A DNA stretch of 34,191 bases, from positions 1-34,191 of the forward strand of contig PBWA01000046.1 in NCBI GenBank assembly GCA_002728855.1, given 5' to 3'. Below the pieces are notes generated by a model. That model saw only the letters and a program-made list of their open reading frames with translations. It did no database searches and was not told the DNA's origin. Of the stretch, positions 99 through 23,371 are shown one piece after another. Source of the stretch: Flavobacteriaceae bacterium. GTDB taxonomy: Bacteria; Bacteroidota; Bacteroidia; Flavobacteriales; Flavobacteriaceae. A program made the translations under genes and the position numbers. How positions within the stretch are numbered: position 1 is the stretch's first letter; each line of letters opens with the position of its first letter.

Positions 99-2900
99 AT
101 GAAAAAAATATTATACATTATATTGTTTTTTAAAACATCAATACTTTTTTCACAAACAAATATAAATTATGATATTAAAGCAAGATTTGATGAAAATGAT
201 GGTAAGATTGATATAAATCAAAGTATTTCCTATAAAAATATATCAGACAATACTATCGAAACAATCTATCTTAATGATTGGTCAAATTCATATTCAAGCA
301 CTGACACTCCATTAGCAAAAAGATTTGGAGAAGAATACGACAGGAGCTTTTATCTCTCATCAAAAAACAAACTTGGATTTACAAATATTCATCATATAAG
401 AAAAGATGGTAATGAAGCCAATTGGAACAGATTATCCGATCAAAAAGATATTATACGTATTGATCTAAATCGACCATTAGAAAAAAATGACAGTATTAAT
501 CTTGATATAAAATATTCAGTAAAACTTCCTGATTCAAAATTTACAGGCTATGGCAATAAAAATAGAGAAACATTTCATCTCAAACATTGGTATATTACAA
601 TTAGTCCTATTCATAATGGAGAATGGAAGAAATACAGTAATCTAGATCTTGATGACAGTAGTATTAATCAAGCTGATTATAAAATAAGTTTAAATATTTT
701 AAAAAACTTAACTGTGAATGTTAATTTAGAAAGCATAGGAAGCCCAGTTATCGTTGATGATGATAGAGTAATTAAAAACTATCATGGAGAAAACAAAAAG
801 GAAATAGAGTTTGTATTAGGTTATAAAAATAACTTCAAAAAAATACTTGATGACCAAGGGAAATTAATAATTACTGATATATATAGTAAAAATCTTGATG
901 ATAAAGACTTGAATGAAAATGTAATTGAAATAATTAAGTTTGTTAGGTCTTTTTTAGAAGTTGAAAATGATAAAACCTCTCTTATTTCGAAAATAGTATA
1001 TGAGAAAAATCCATATTATGGGTTGAATGATCTTCCATCTTTTCTAAGGCCTTTTAGTGATGACTTTCTTAATGAAATTACCTTTTTAAAAGCTTACTTA
1101 CATTATTTTTTAAATAGTAAACTAACAATAGATTTAAGAGAAAACCATTGGATATTATCAGGTCTTCAGACTTATATCATAATAAAATATATTGAAGAAT
1201 TTCATCCAAAACAAAAATTTCTTGGAAGAATATCAAATCTTGGTATAATGAAACTATATAATATCTCAACAGTTGACTTCAATGATAGTTTTTTGCTTTA
1301 TTCTGAATTTGTAAAACGTGCTAATCTTCAGCAAGCAGATATTACTGTCAAAAATAAACTTACAAGGTTTAATGAACGAATTGCATCGCCATATAATGTA
1401 GGTTTAGGGTTAAAATATCTAGAAGAATATTTAGGTGAAAATAATGTTAAGAAAGGAATTAGAAAATTCATGAAAAATCCAAAAAAATCATCTTTTAGAG
1501 AGTCTATTTCTTCTAATACCAAAAAAGATGTTAATTGGTTCTTTGATGATTATGTAGGAAAAAGGGAGTCTTTTGACTTATCAATTGAAAAATTAGAAAT
1601 TAAAGAAAATAATATTTTAATTCAGGTCCTAAATAAAAAAGGATCAATTGTTCCATACACTGTTGGTCAATTAAGAAATGATAGTTTAGTAGATTTAAGG
1701 TGGATAGATCCAAAAAACAAGAGTACTTCAATAAGCTTAAAATATCTTGACTCTGATTATATATCTATTAACCCAAGTATAAGATTTCCTGAAATTAATA
1801 GAAGTAATAACTGGAGATATATTAAAAGAAAAATTAAACCCATTCAGTTTAATTTTTTCAAGGACTATGAATCTCCAAAAAGAGAGCAGATATACTATAA
1901 TCCAATAATGAATTATAATTATTATGATGGTTTTTCTTTCGGATCAAGGTTTCACAATAAAGGAATAAAAATGCAAAAATTTACTTTTGAGCTTATGCCG
2001 GAGTACTCAACTAATCAAGAAACAATTGTTGGTGCAATAAAAGGGCAACTTAATTTGTTTAATGAAAAAAGTAAAAATTATCGCACTCAAATTAATCTTT
2101 ATGCTAGTAGTTATCATTATAAGTTAAATTCAAGGTATAGAGTAATACTTCCTGGAATATCAACTTTTTTAAGAACTCCTGACTTCCGTTCAAATAAGGG
2201 ACAGGTTTTTAGCTTGTTTTATTACAGTGTCTTTAGAGAAAATCTAAAAGATTCTGAAATGAATCCAAATTATAATGTATTAAGTACAAAATATTTATTT
2301 TCCAATAAAACAGCAGTAAAACATTTTACAATTAAAACTAATTTTGAAGTGTCTAAAGGATTCGGTAAAATAGATTTAACAAGTGATTATAGAAAACTTT
2401 TCCCAAGTGGTAGACAATTTAGCGCTAGATTATTTATAGGTAAGTTTCTTTGGCATAACCGAACCAAAACTAATTATTTTGATTATAATCTAAACCGTCC
2501 TACAGACTATCTTTTCAATTATAATTATTTCGGAAGATCAGAGGAACAGGGTGTTTTCAGTCAACAATTTGTTATGGCCGAAGGTGGATTTAAATCAAAA
2601 TTCAAAACCTCATCAGCTAATAACTATATTTTATCTTCAAACTTTACAATTGGGTTGTGGAAATTTGTTGAATTGTATTCTGATATTGGGGTTATAAAAA
2701 ATATAGGCACATCATCAAAAGGTTTTTTTGATTCAGGTATTGGGTTAAATTTTATACCTGATTATCTTCAACTATATTTCCCTTTTTATTCCTCTAATGG
2801 TTGGCAAATTAATCGTGATAAGTATGAAGAAAAAATAAGATTTATTTTATCGATTGATCCTGATCAACTAATGTCACTTTTTTCAAGAAGGTGGTTTTAG
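99..2900 (+). CDS. Secreted M1-peptidase-like protein with degenerate zinc site
   Basis: 933 residues starting with a Sec signal peptide (hydrophobic residues 4-17, likely cut near FSQ at 17-19). Residues 20-230 resemble the beta-sandwich N-domain of M1 (gluzincin) aminopeptidases and about 240-480 the catalytic-domain fold. Residues 600-933 are rich in alternating aromatic/polar strands and end in Phe, as outer-membrane beta-barrels do. The M1 signature HEXXH-X18-E is replaced by KAYLH-X18-S near residues 330-354. Only the second His remains, so peptidase activity is unlikely. The following GLQTY stretch still fits the M1 GL-T-Y pattern. The gene lies 4 bases after uvrA. I infer a structural, chaperone or binding role at the outer membrane; the substrate is unknown. 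Confidence 0.72.
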   Translation: MKKILYIILFFKTSILFSQTNINYDIKARFDENDGKIDINQSISYKNISDNTIETIYLNDWSNSYSSTDTPLAKRFGEEYDRSFYLSSKNKLGFTNIHHIRKDGNEANWNRLSDQKDIIRIDLNRPLEKNDSINLDIKYSVKLPDSKFTGYGNKNRETFHLKHWYITISPIHNGEWKKYSNLDLDDSSINQADYKISLNILKNLTVNVNLESIGSPVIVDDDRVIKNYHGENKKEIEFVLGYKNNFKKILDDQGKLIITDIYSKNLDDKDLNENVIEIIKFVRSFLEVENDKTSLISKIVYEKNPYYGLNDLPSFLRPFSDDFLNEITFLKAYLHYFLNSKLTIDLRENHWILSGLQTYIIIKYIEEFHPKQKFLGRISNLGIMKLYNISTVDFNDSFLLYSEFVKRANLQQADITVKNKLTRFNERIASPYNVGLGLKYLEEYLGENNVKKGIRKFMKNPKKSSFRESISSNTKKDVNWFFDDYVGKRESFDLSIEKLEIKENNILIQVLNKKGSIVPYTVGQLRNDSLVDLRWIDPKNKSTSISLKYLDSDYISINPSIRFPEINRSNNWRYIKRKIKPIQFNFFKDYESPKREQIYYNPIMNYNYYDGFSFGSRFHNKGIKMQKFTFELMPEYSTNQETIVGAIKGQLNLFNEKSKNYRTQINLYASSYHYKLNSRYRVILPGISTFLRTPDFRSNKGQVFSLFYYSVFRENLKDSEMNPNYNVLSTKYLFSNKTAVKHFTIKTNFEVSKGFGKIDLTSDYRKLFPSGRQFSARLFIGKFLWHNRTKTNYFDYNLNRPTDYLFNYNYFGRSEEQGVFSQQFVMAEGGFKSKFKTSSANNYILSSNFTIGLWKFVELYSDIGVIKNIGTSSKGFFDSGIGLNFIPDYLQLYFPFYSSNGWQINRDKYEEKIRFILSIDPDQLMSLFSRRWF

Positions 2901-2957
2901 TTAAACAAGCTTTTAAAAGTTCACTTTCTAATTAATTCAAAAGTTTTTAAAATATTG

Positions 2958-2965
2958 TAAATTTG
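2958..2965 (+). promoter_or_regulatory. Promoter -7 element for E1 gene
   Basis: TAAATTTG is an exact match to the Bacteroidota TAnnTTTG element. A transcript starting about 4 bases after it would begin near 2969, giving only about 6 untranslated bases before the ATG at 2975. No good TTG -33 element is visible at the expected spacing. The in-frame TTG at 2963 lies inside this element and is therefore unlikely to be the start codon. Confidence 0.6.
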
Positions 2966-2974
2966 TTTCCCCCT

Positions 2975-5389
2975 ATGAAGCCTAGTATTAAAGAAAATAA
3001 CGATGTTTTAAGTTTTGCAGATTACAAAAAAAAAGTTATTCAGGATTATGAATTAGTCATATTAAGTAGGCAATGTAGTATTTTAGGCCGCAGAGAGGTT
3101 TTAAATGGGAAAGGTAAATTTGGAATATTTGGTGATGGTAAAGAACTCCCTCAAGTAGTTCTTAATCATTTTTTTCAGAAAGGGGATTATCGCGCAGGTT
3201 ATTATCGAGATCAAACACTTTTGATGGCTCAAGGCTTACTTGATTCAGACAAATTTTTCGCTTCGCTTTACGGACACCCAGATTTAAATTATGAACCTAT
3301 GTCTGGTGGTCGACAAATGGGAGCGCATTTTATGACCGAGAATATTGATAAAAATGGTAATTGGATTTCACAAAAAACCATATTTAATCATAGTGCAGAT
3401 TTATCTCCAACAGCATCTCAAATGCCCAGATTGGTTGGATTAGCTCAAGCTTCAAAAATTTACAGAAATCTTAATATAAAGAATGCATCTAATTTTTCAT
3501 CTAATGGAAATGAAATTGCTTGGGGCACAATAGGAAATGCTAGTACTAGCGAAGGAGTCTTTTTTGAGGCTATTAATGCTATTGGAGTTCTTCAAGTTCC
3601 AATGATTATTAGTGTATGGGATGACGGATACGGAATTTCTGTTGATAACAAGCTTCAAACAACAAAAGAAAGCATTTCAGAGGTCTTGAAAGGATTTCAA
3701 AGAAATGACAAGTTGGATGGCTTTGAAATATTAACTGTTAAAGGATGGGACTATGCTGAATTGCTTAAAACCTATGAATATGCTTCTAAATTAGCAAGAG
3801 AAAAGCATGTTCCTAGCCTAATCCATGTTACGGAGCTTACTCAGCCATTAGGTCATTCTACTTCTGGTTCACATGAACGCTATAAATCCAAAAAAAGATT
3901 GGAATGGGAAAAAAAATTTGATTGTAATCTTAAAATGAAAGAATGGATTCTTACAAATGGCATTTCAAAAGAAAAAAATTTGATTGAATTAGAATCAAAA
4001 ATTAAGGAAGATGTAAAAGAATCAAGAATTCGGTCATGGAAAAATTATCAAAAACCAATTATTAAATTGAGAAAAGAGCTCAATGAATTTGCTGAAAAAA
4101 TCCCTTCTATTTCAAGTAATGAAATTTCATCTAAAATATTAACTAATTTAAATAAGAAAACAGATCTTTTATATAAGGACATTATTTCTGCATCAAGAAA
4201 AATAAACTATCAATTAACTTTTGAAAAAAACAATGATACATTGATGTTTAAAAAATGGTTAAATGATCTTAAATTAATTTTAAATAAAAAATATTCATCA
4301 AACCTTTATAGTGAGGGTATAAACTCAGCCAATGAAGTAAATGAGATTCCTATTGTTTATGATAAAGATTCTATAGTTTCAGATGCAAGCTTAATTCTTA
4401 GAAATAATTTTGATGCGCTTTTAAAAAAATACGATAGGTTATTAATCTTTGGGGAAGATACTGGTAAAATAGGTGGGGTCAACCAGGGTCTTAAAGGATT
4501 GCAGGAGGAATATGGGTCAGAAAGAGTTTCTGATACGGGCATAAGAGAATCCACCATAATTGGACAAGGAATTGGCATGGCTTTACGAGGACTAAGACCA
4601 ATTGCTGAGATACAATATTTAGATTATATTTTATATTGCATACAAACTCTTAGCGATGATTTAGCTACATTAAGTTATCGGACTGTGGGTAGACAAATTG
4701 CCCCATTAATTATAAGGACTAGAGGGCATCGTTTAGAGGGTATTTGGCACTCTGGATCTCCAATGGGAGCACTTACAAATTTATTGAGAGGAATTCTTAT
4801 TCTAGTGCCTCGAAATATGACTAAAGCTGCAGGTTTTTATAATACTCTAATGAAATGTAATCAACCAGCTATTGTTGTTGAACCCTTAAATGCATACAGG
4901 ATTAAAGAAAAAATGCCAAAAAACTTAGGAGAGTTTTGCTTACCTGTTGGAGAAATAGAAATAATTAAAGAGGGTAATGACATTACGATAGTTTCATATG
5001 GATCAACTCTTAGAATTGTAAGTTTTGTAGTGGATGAACTAGAAAAAATTGGAATTAATTGTGAATTAATTGATCTTCAAACTTTAATTCCTTTTGATCA
5101 ATCTAAAAGAATCAGAGAGAGTCTTTCAAAAACAAATAGATTGTTAATAGTTGATGAAGATTTACCTGGAGGAGCATCATCTTATATACTTCAGGAACTT
5201 CTTAAAAAACAAGATATATATAATCTTTTAGATAGTCCTCCTGAATTATTAACTGCAAAAGAACACAGGCCCCCTTATGCTGAAGATGGAGATTACTTTT
5301 CTAAACCCTCAAAAGAAGATGTTTTTGAAAAGATAATTTCAATAATGCATGAAGTAGATCCAAAAAGATATCCCTTAGCTGAGAGCTAA
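2975..5389 (+). CDS. Branched-chain 2-oxoacid dehydrogenase E1, fused alpha-beta
   Basis: A thiamine-diphosphate E1 component that decarboxylates branched-chain 2-oxo acids and acylates the lipoyl E2 subunit. The alpha half (about 1-390) shows GRQMGAHF, a SADLSPTASQMP stretch equivalent to the BCKDH SSPLATQ segment, and the cofactor region GNASTSEGVFFEA followed by WDDGYGIS. The beta half (about 470-804) shows the catalytic-glutamate region FGED-G-GGV, then SDTGIRE, GMALRGLRPIAEIQY and RTRGHR. The single-chain alpha-beta fusion is typical of Bacteroidota. ATG 2975 is preferred over TTG 2963, which sits in the promoter motif, and it gives 804 residues. No E2 or E3 gene is nearby. A terminator overlaps the stop codon. 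It could act on other 2-oxo acids, but it does not look like classic AceE. Confidence 0.88.
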   Translation: MKPSIKENNDVLSFADYKKKVIQDYELVILSRQCSILGRREVLNGKGKFGIFGDGKELPQVVLNHFFQKGDYRAGYYRDQTLLMAQGLLDSDKFFASLYGHPDLNYEPMSGGRQMGAHFMTENIDKNGNWISQKTIFNHSADLSPTASQMPRLVGLAQASKIYRNLNIKNASNFSSNGNEIAWGTIGNASTSEGVFFEAINAIGVLQVPMIISVWDDGYGISVDNKLQTTKESISEVLKGFQRNDKLDGFEILTVKGWDYAELLKTYEYASKLAREKHVPSLIHVTELTQPLGHSTSGSHERYKSKKRLEWEKKFDCNLKMKEWILTNGISKEKNLIELESKIKEDVKESRIRSWKNYQKPIIKLRKELNEFAEKIPSISSNEISSKILTNLNKKTDLLYKDIISASRKINYQLTFEKNNDTLMFKKWLNDLKLILNKKYSSNLYSEGINSANEVNEIPIVYDKDSIVSDASLILRNNFDALLKKYDRLLIFGEDTGKIGGVNQGLKGLQEEYGSERVSDTGIRESTIIGQGIGMALRGLRPIAEIQYLDYILYCIQTLSDDLATLSYRTVGRQIAPLIIRTRGHRLEGIWHSGSPMGALTNLLRGILILVPRNMTKAAGFYNTLMKCNQPAIVVEPLNAYRIKEKMPKNLGEFCLPVGEIEIIKEGNDITIVSYGSTLRIVSFVVDELEKIGINCELIDLQTLIPFDQSKRIRESLSKTNRLLIVDEDLPGGASSYILQELLKKQDIYNLLDSPPELLTAKEHRPPYAEDGDYFSKPSKEDVFEKIISIMHEVDPKRYPLAES

Positions 5390-16657: not shown

Positions 16658-17332
16658 ATGATAATAAATTACGAAACTAATATAGAAAAAGTTCTAAATA
16701 AACTTTCAAACAAAACAAATTCAAGATCTTTTGATTTAATAAGTAAGGAGATGTCTAAAAATATATTTTTAAGTAAAAATCAAATTATTTTTGAAAAATT
16801 GAATCCTAAAAAAATCTTTCACATCCAAGATATAAAGAAAGTTTGTGTTGATTACAGGTTGAGATTTTTAGATTCATCTTACTATAAAGGAAAAATTCCA
16901 AACATTGCTCTTGATAAGATAAATTCCTTACAAAAAAAACACCGCACAAGCCTAAGTAATTTCAAAATAATGGGCCCCTCAAGTGTTTTTCAATTGGAGA
17001 AAAAAGACGATCCATTGTTATTCGTTCAAATTAGTAAGAATTATTATTATCTAGTTCATAAATGGGGAAATGATTTTTCTGGTTTAAGAAGAATTTTTGT
17101 TTGGCCATTTAAAAATTTGAATACATTACTATTAACACTATTTTTTATAAGTCTTATAATTACAAAATTAGTCCCTGAGGGATTATTTTCTCATTCAATG
17201 GATTTTAAATCTTTTTGGATCATTCATCTTTTTATTTTAAAAGGATTAATTTCTATTGCTATATTCTATGGATTTGCATACGGTAAAAACTTCAATGTTA
17301 ATATTTGGAATAACAAATTTGATAAGTTTTAG
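16658..17332 (+). CDS. Uncharacterised protein with C-terminal membrane segments
   Basis: I do not recognise a named family. The protein has 224 residues: a soluble N-terminal part (1-145) and two probable transmembrane helices (about 153-171 and 186-206) ending in a short basic tail. The middle contains VCVDYRLRFLDSSYYKGKIP and then MGPSSVFQLEKKDDPLLFVQ, which look conserved; I recall similar text in hypothetical proteins of other Bacteroidota. No enzymatic motif or signal peptide is seen. It sits between pheT and a DUF2007 gene with very short gaps, so it is probably co-transcribed with them. Confidence 0.7.
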   Translation: MIINYETNIEKVLNKLSNKTNSRSFDLISKEMSKNIFLSKNQIIFEKLNPKKIFHIQDIKKVCVDYRLRFLDSSYYKGKIPNIALDKINSLQKKHRTSLSNFKIMGPSSVFQLEKKDDPLLFVQISKNYYYLVHKWGNDFSGLRRIFVWPFKNLNTLLLTLFFISLIITKLVPEGLFSHSMDFKSFWIIHLFILKGLISIAIFYGFAYGKNFNVNIWNNKFDKF

Positions 17333-22345: not shown

Positions 22346-23371
22346 ATGAAGATTACTTCAAGCATTATATTTTTAATTTTTTTTCTAAAATGTGGTTCTA
22401 GTGCCAGTGACGATTTTTCAATAAAAATTAATTCAAATTCTAAAAAACTAACCAATAATGATTCAATTAAGCTGTCAATAAAAAATAACAAAAATCATGT
22501 TATAGACTCTGTACATTATTTTTTAAATCAAGAAAAAATTTACCAAAATTATTCTTTGAAAAATCTAAAGCTAGGCAATCACCTAATTGAAGCATCTATT
22601 TTTTCTAATAAAGAAAATATAATTAAGCAGACTACCATAAAGATTTTTGCTAACTCTCCTCCTATTCTTTATACCTATGAAATTATTAACGAATATCCCC
22701 ATGATCAAGAAGCATATACCCAAGGACTTGAATTTTATAATGATACACTCTATGAAAGTACTGGTTTAAAAGGGAAATCAACAATAAGGAAATTAAATTA
22801 TAAAACTGGCGAGATATACTCAATTCAACCATTAGATCCTGTATATTTTGGCGAAGGATTAACTCTTATTAATGATAAACTAATTCAATTAACCTGGAGA
22901 GAAGGAATTGGTTTTCAGTACAATCCAATCACATTAGAAATAGAAAGATCATTTTCCTATGACAAAAGTAAAGAAGGATGGGGTTTATGTAACGATGGAG
23001 TGAAAATTTACAAATCTGATGGTACTAATTTTCTTTGGATATTAGATTCAAAAACTCAAAAAGAAATCGATTATATTGAGGTAATGACCAATAAATCAAG
23101 TCTAAATAAAATAAATGAATTAGAATATGCTAATGGTAAAATATATGCTAACACATATCAATTTGACAAGGATGTTGCGGTTATAATTAATCCAAAAAAT
23201 GGAATGGTTGAAGGTGTAATTGACTTTTCAGGTCTAAAAGACAGAGTGAATAAACATCCTAAATTAGATGTATTGAATGGAATAGCTTATAATAAAAAAA
23301 GCAAAACATTTTTTGTGACTGGAAAAAATTGGAATAAATTATTTGAAGTGAATATACACAGGAAAAATTAA
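22346..23371 (+). CDS. Glutaminyl-peptide cyclotransferase (plant/bacterial type)
   Basis: 341 residues. The five-bladed beta-propeller cyclase domain spans about 110-341: AYTQGLEFYNDTLYESTGLKG, VYFGEGLTLI, QLTWREG, EGWGLCNDG, SDGTNFLWILD, INELEYANGKIYANTY and LNGIAYN. These enzymes turn N-terminal Gln into pyroglutamate. Residues 1-15 form a signal peptide followed by Cys16. The lipobox F-L-K-C is atypical because Lys precedes the Cys, so lipidation is uncertain. Residues 20-105 form an extra beta-rich region (NSNSKKLTNNDSIKLSIKN), possibly Ig-like. It converges with glyA, leaving 2 bases between. Confidence 0.88.
   Translation: MKITSSIIFLIFFLKCGSSASDDFSIKINSNSKKLTNNDSIKLSIKNNKNHVIDSVHYFLNQEKIYQNYSLKNLKLGNHLIEASIFSNKENIIKQTTIKIFANSPPILYTYEIINEYPHDQEAYTQGLEFYNDTLYESTGLKGKSTIRKLNYKTGEIYSIQPLDPVYFGEGLTLINDKLIQLTWREGIGFQYNPITLEIERSFSYDKSKEGWGLCNDGVKIYKSDGTNFLWILDSKTQKEIDYIEVMTNKSSLNKINELEYANGKIYANTYQFDKDVAVIINPKNGMVEGVIDFSGLKDRVNKHPKLDVLNGIAYNKKSKTFFVTGKNWNKLFEVNIHRKN

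Follow-up and report, generated by a model that had tools for sequence, protein, structure and literature searches.

The window, by which we mean the whole stretch of 34,191 nucleotides analysed here, opens together with its contig in the end of a putative uvrA gene (bases 2-94, its last 30 codons, as read from the sequence). The gene considered below follows on the forward strand, and its 933 open codons would occur by chance with a probability of about 5e-37 at the base composition of the window. The features of the gene and its product are listed below, with the boundaries of the M1-like domains placed by eye.

99-2900, forward strand: whole gene, starting with ATG and encoding 933 aa with Phe as the last residue (list of open reading frames).
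99-152, forward strand: putative signal peptide, residues 1-18, with cleavage before Gln19, read from the sequence by eye.
156-884, forward strand: M1-like domain I, residues 20-262, mostly strands (model; M1 chains align from residue 20).
885-1562, forward strand: M1-like domain II, the former catalytic domain, residues 263-488 (model and M1 matches).
1011-1055, forward strand: former GxMEN loop, residues 305-319, consensus PxYGLNQLPSFIxPF (conservation and tree rows).
1089-1103, forward strand: former HExxH, here KAYLH, residues 331-335 (alignment with intact relatives).
1158-1160, forward strand: position of the former third zinc ligand, residue 354, here Ser and in 76 of 80 relatives Asp.
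1389-1391, forward strand: position of the former catalytic Tyr, residue 431, here Pro (alignment).
1563-1778, forward strand: M1-like domain III, a beta-sandwich, residues 489-560 (model).
1884-2849, forward strand: predicted 16-strand outer-membrane barrel, residues 596-917 (two models, Foldseek and VIA-align).
2457-2624, forward strand: long conserved loop between strands 11 and 12, residues 787-842, with the motif DYLF..GRSE..G..SQQ..EGGFK (models, mostly of low confidence there).
2850-2897, forward strand: conserved C-terminal tail LFxRxWF, residues 918-933, mostly predicted helix (conservation and model).

The gene is present in one copy in its own genome (1.62 Mb, 83% complete) and sits in a conserved chromosomal place. 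Among 80 loci encoding relatives, several of them cut by contig ends, 75 contain a LOG-like gene and 69 a putative uvrA, usually immediately upstream, and 75 contain an E1 dehydrogenase cluster, usually immediately downstream, all names being read from the sequences. In the window, too, an E1 gene comes after 99-2900. The LOG-like gene usually lies between uvrA and this gene; it is absent here because window and contig begin with the end of the putative uvrA. Further along, a Pfam match was obtained for 19 of 20 scanned neighbour proteins at 2963-31097 (one of them weak, to DUF4369), which look like ordinary housekeeping or envelope genes; 16658-17332 was the sole one of the 20 without such a match.

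The residue that would become the N-terminus after export, Gln19, is nearly invariant among the relatives and fits the Q-rule, according to which an N-terminal pyroglutamate is formed after the signal peptide, as described in the part of PMC5837995 considered here. A glutamine cyclotransferase (PF05096) is encoded 20 kb downstream, at 22346-23371, and together with Gln19 it fits the same rule.

The protein had been described in the first-pass annotation as an M1-fold outer-membrane protein that has lost its zinc site. Searches of Pfam, NCBIfam and PDB sequences gave no match for the protein, and a viral structure library gave none at E 0.001. The AlphaFold model of the whole protein (mean pLDDT 84.1, pTM 0.85) nevertheless superposes well on M1 peptidases: the best match in VIA-align is ERAP1 (3qnf_C, Z 22.5, rmsd 3.2 over 460 residues), all 50 among the matches listed are M1 proteins with Z between 19.6 and 22.5, and Foldseek agrees on the fold (E 2e-18). 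PF01433 does not match the window protein itself, but it is found in all four intact relatives examined (L043, L046, L048 and L049, intact meaning that HExxH-X18-E is kept) and, at E<=1, in 31 of 38 relatives that have lost the motif, with a best value of 4.7e-7. In the 4 + 7 intact M1-barrel proteins that were scanned, the M1 domain is the only one to which Pfam gives a name. Judged from the model, which matches M1 peptidases, and from co-linear relatives that carry an intact site, the assignment to M1 is right.

The spacing of the M1 zinc site is kept as claimed, in the form KAYLH-X18-S, with Ser354 following residues 331-335 after exactly 18 residues. Since KAYLH and Ser align with the HExxH and Glu columns of intact relatives, this spacing is not a coincidence. 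It had also been stated that two of the three zinc ligands and the general base are gone, which holds for the window protein; the remaining His335, however, is not a conserved residue. In 80 relatives the former motif positions read Lys in 78, Thr in 70, Asn in 46 or His in 12, and Asp in 76, and because Asn mostly occupies the position of His335 in the orthologues, this histidine should not be read as a kept ligand. The loss also goes further than the earlier description, as the catalytic Tyr and the greater part of the GxMEN-type loop have disappeared too. Ten positions are invariant in the 36 intact rows of our tree, namely G, M, E, Y and P of the loop, H, E, H and E of the motif, and the Tyr, all of them presumably corresponding to the active-site positions known under these names in M1 enzymes. 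The window protein retains two of the ten, the Pro and the second His. GMEYP as a whole and the catalytic Tyr, each present in 36 of 36 intact rows, occur in none of the 21 lost rows; position by position, G, M, E, the first His and Tyr are kept in 0 of 21, Y in 1, the general base Glu in 2, the second His in 3, the third ligand in 6 and Pro in 14. The extreme case against a non-catalytic reading is L037 (3001-5889, G005), a member of the window's own family with KEFLH-X18-E, in which the first His alone is missing from the motif; L037 lacks GMEY and the Tyr and retains Pro, Glu, His and Glu. M1 chemistry as such has not been lost by the organism, since its genome encodes two other M1 proteins that keep the motif; judged by length, their open frames of 644 and 767 aa do not include such a barrel.

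A first scan of genome contigs found no relative. Proteins matching that of the window were detected in 50 of 60 genomes searched (its own included) and in 34 of 36 other genomes of the same genus or family; from the scan of named genomes the best 80 of at least 584 loci encoding a relative were taken. HExxH is found in 0 of the 81 rows of the orthologue alignment A3. The more distant L043, L046, L048 and L049, from the same order, align co-linearly almost from end to end and have HEIGH or HEVGH followed by the 18-residue spacing and Glu. A search with a mixed alignment at E 1e-10 gave matches in 185 of 198 genomes of the class (its own included), other M1 proteins being among them, and none in 13; the proteins taken from it are a part only, from the best-scoring places. 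In all, HExxH-X18-E is kept in 67 of 118 proteins and lost in 51, a set in which L044 and L169 count the same place twice and L005 is a fragment at a contig end that still covers the site. Outside the order the motif is kept in 62 of 63 proteins, the one without it being L231, and in the window's family it is present in 0 of 40. The zinc-site loss is thus not private to this genome as far as the homologue alignment goes, and the clade-wide loss for which the first-pass annotation had suggested looking is indeed seen. A quick LG+G4 tree of 58 hand-chosen rows (GxMEN and zinc-site columns excluded, no bootstrap, long branches for L163 and L050 and a warning for L047 with L050) requires two state changes. 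The 21 lost rows, grouped with SH-aLRT 98, account for the first and L231 for the second; the rows that branch closest to the lost group, L043 and L046, are both intact. On this quick tree, one loss falls on the common ancestor that the window's family shares with several sister families, and a separate one elsewhere. L231 (G196) belongs to another family of the class; it has RMVAN in place of HExxH and still carries Glu at the third ligand position.

The C-terminal third had been described as strand-rich and ending in Phe, and both models indeed fold it into a barrel of 16 strands, the last one short. Modelled alone, the barrel has a pLDDT of 72.8 and a pTM of 0.72. Strands 11 and 12 are connected by its longest loop, which is modelled with low confidence and which we take to occupy the place of L6 in Omp85 barrels; the loop motif GR.E..G..SQQ..(D/E)GGFK is common to intact and lost relatives.

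A pseudopeptidase of M1 descent joined to a beta-barrel, as proposed in the first-pass annotation, is therefore backed by the fold, the intact co-linear relatives, the low dN/dS given below and the clade-wide loss. The role suggested there, peptide binding or surface-protein handling, is possible. As to what such a protein might do, we see about an even chance that the M1-like domain, after a single ancestral loss of catalysis, has been maintained to serve an Omp85-like barrel of the outer membrane as a module for binding or gating. In an exported protein, the M1 core (domains I-III) would then be followed by a 16-strand Omp85-like barrel in the place that domain IV occupies in M1 peptidases; its origin would lie in the intact M1-peptidase-barrel proteins, a family widespread in the class. 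Catalysis would have disappeared a single time, before the window's family and several of its sister families diverged, with the gene kept thereafter under purifying selection. The even strand count and the analogy with Omp85 place the M1-like part probably in the periplasm, where it may sit at the barrel mouth. The former substrate cleft, rebuilt around YGLNQLP, could serve as the non-catalytic binding or gating module, and its ligand might be a polypeptide or a partner protein handled by the barrel. The pattern of conservation is in keeping with a role for the cleft: when the M1-like part of 80 orthologues is scanned in 526 fifteen-residue windows, conservation is highest at residues 305-319, the former GxMEN loop, and next, at a separate place, at 421-435, the region of the former catalytic Tyr. 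What counts against this reading is that the helices that once held the zinc site are, by the same kind of comparison, only slightly more conserved than the whole of domain II, with entropies of 1.21 (former HExxH) and 1.22 (former third ligand) versus 1.38 bits for the domain overall.

Strong conservation is also found in the linker 561-595, the L6-like loop, the last strands and the C-terminal tail. This would fit a tight interface between the M1-like part and the barrel, as would the pTM of the whole model, and suggests another way of looking at the protein, in which the M1-like part is a scaffold only, a substitute for POTRA domains that holds or plugs the barrel, with the former-cleft loop making an interdomain contact and binding no ligand. 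In M1 enzymes, however, the GxMEN loop lines the substrate cleft and does not belong to the outer face of the domain, and this makes a mere scaffold somewhat unlikely in our judgement.

The nature of the barrel bears on a further alternative, an ordinary porin-like pore outside the Omp85 superfamily, for which the M1-like part would be a nutrient receptor or a plug. In VIA-align the porins CymA, LamB and ScrY (sucrose porin) reach Z 13-14, level with Omp85 proteins at 13-15, and the profile comparison with Omp85 is weak. With PorP, TonB-receptor barrel and reversed-row controls included, all hhalign probabilities for the barrel were <=13%, mixed Omp85 and TamL-like profiles scoring somewhat above the controls and a BamA-only profile not; one of seven comparisons made without those controls gave 65%, which was not reproduced, and the other six gave under 10%. 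An attempt to recognise the superfamily by sequence with home-made HMMs clearly found L163 alone (E 9.3e-6 and 6.4e-4), other rows being mixed with reversed decoys, and L163 is not among the 14 best rows of a BamA-only HMM. Membership in the Omp85 superfamily is thus not proven by sequence. On the other hand, the 50 Foldseek matches listed for the barrel all belong to this superfamily by description (TamA, BamA, Sam50, FhaC), with E between 7.4e-7 and 2.7e-4. The 16 strands and the longest loop between strands 11 and 12 likewise speak against a simple pore. L163 itself (589-3780, G043; 1067 aa) is a distant relative with an intact M1 domain (HExxH), and its barrel, recognised by the Omp85 HMMs, contains GGGLNLRGY; a PF01103 match of 34 bits appeared for it in the genome profile search and was not listed by hmmscan. 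We take the barrel to be probably Omp85-like and consider the porin reading unlikely.

A third possibility is that the M1-like part is a relic, the barrel carrying the function and the dead domain being tolerated. It is suggested by the divergence of the two parts. At a barrel identity of 20-30% the mean identity of the M1 part is 50% in intact pairs (n=417) versus 20% in lost pairs (n=28), and at 30-40% it is 54% (143 pairs) versus 26% (114 pairs), with L231, L163 and L050 left out of the comparison. The far greater divergence at equal barrel identity argues that, once the site had been lost, constraint on the M1 part was relaxed or took another direction. The first-pass annotation had set intact homologues combined with relaxed selection against its own reading; intact homologues do exist and the M1 part is more divergent in the lost proteins, but purifying selection is still strong. 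Between the window gene and its one congener dN/dS is low, 0.187 (dN 0.119, dS 0.639; 470 shared codons), and for residues 325-365 the ratio is 0.032 (41 codons, dS above 1). The 24 other pairs gave 22 finite ratios of 0.029-0.077 and two saturated ones; in the nine pairs with dS below 1 the ratio was 0.029-0.059. More to the point for a dead domain, the ratios of the N-terminal part taken separately are 0.035-0.091, finite values being obtained for 22 of 24 pairs. Frames of 930-973 aa are open in 39 of the 40 proteins of the window's family, the remaining one being cut by a contig end, and the earlier view that the gene shows no frame decay and is maintained agrees with its 933 intact codons and low dN/dS. 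A freely drifting relic should not hold the old cleft loop so constant. Strong purifying selection and a former cleft loop that is the most conserved part of the domain are why decay is not the reading we prefer, and we regard it as quite improbable.

We regard it as very improbable that the protein still catalyses a reaction at a site of another kind, without metal or with a different one: the non-random residues at the former ligand positions (mostly Lys and Asp) might indicate a new conserved pocket and L037 keeps three of the four motif residues, but the window protein has no other HExxH, the site sought at the suggestion of the first-pass annotation, a search for three patterns with two His (HE..H, H..EH and H...H) found none in it, E..H occurring at 157 and 366, residues 1-560 contain one His (85) and no Cys conserved at >=80%, and residue 354 is Ser and not Asp.

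Returning to the binding or gating module, one may ask what its intact form did. It is conceivable, though doubtful, that a POTRA-less Omp85-like machine widespread in the class has an M1 peptidase for its periplasmic module, that in the window's clade this trimmer of N-termini became a pure polypeptide receptor feeding or gating the barrel, and that the intact form could be a periplasmic aminopeptidase on account of which these bacteria need the N-terminal pyroglutamate of the Q-rule. In the part of PMC5837995 considered here, the question why P. gingivalis cannot do without glutaminyl cyclase is left unanswered, and shielding from proteases of its own periplasm is mentioned. Purely as an idea, the outer-membrane M1 aminopeptidase of the intact lineages might be a candidate for such a protease.

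Several known systems can be set beside this protein. With peptidase family M1 (PF01433: ERAP1, puromycin-sensitive aminopeptidase, LTA4 hydrolase) it shares the fold of domains I-III and the position and spacing of the former zinc site; in contrast to these enzymes it lacks two of the three ligands, the general base, GMEY of the loop and the catalytic Tyr, and has a membrane barrel instead of the helical domain IV. The Omp85 superfamily (BamA, TamA, Sam50, FhaC, PlpD) resembles it in the 16-strand barrel and the long loop between strands 11 and 12. It differs from that superfamily in that the window protein contains no POTRA domain, its N-terminal part being M1-like, that the (V/I)RG(F/Y) motif of L6 is absent, the conserved motif there being (D/E)GGFK (GGFK in the window protein), and that it has no match to PF01103. 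Omp85 groups without POTRA exist, and the ten subfamilies described in the portions of PMC4104836 used here include no M1 fusion, the 'Metallo' group carrying PF00149. Should the barrel really be of the Omp85 kind, a peptidase module standing in for POTRA domains would be an architecture not met in those portions of the survey. The F. johnsoniae BAM subunits BamG, BamH, BamM and BamP are likewise accessory outer-membrane proteins, of a related bacterium, but none is described as M1-like in the sections of PMC12611786 referred to here. Identity with a BAM subunit was considered and rejected: according to the same sections BamM is a PPI-fold lipoprotein, and neither the window protein nor the A3 profile matched a PDB sequence at E<=1. 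The F. psychrophilum elastase FP0506, a gluzincin lipoprotein with intact HExxH, was set apart by its description in the part of PMC6414381 taken into account. Within a limited literature search on M1-barrel proteins or M1 pseudoenzymes, none was recognised as this protein. The closest comparison is with the intact M1-peptidase-barrel proteins of the class, which have the same co-linear architecture and the same barrel loop motif, but unlike the window protein keep HExxH-X18-E, GMEYP and the Tyr. With sister lineages that still have the active site at hand for comparison, the disappearance of that site from a conserved outer-membrane protein provides a clean natural experiment in the outer-membrane biogenesis of Bacteroidota, a field under active study.
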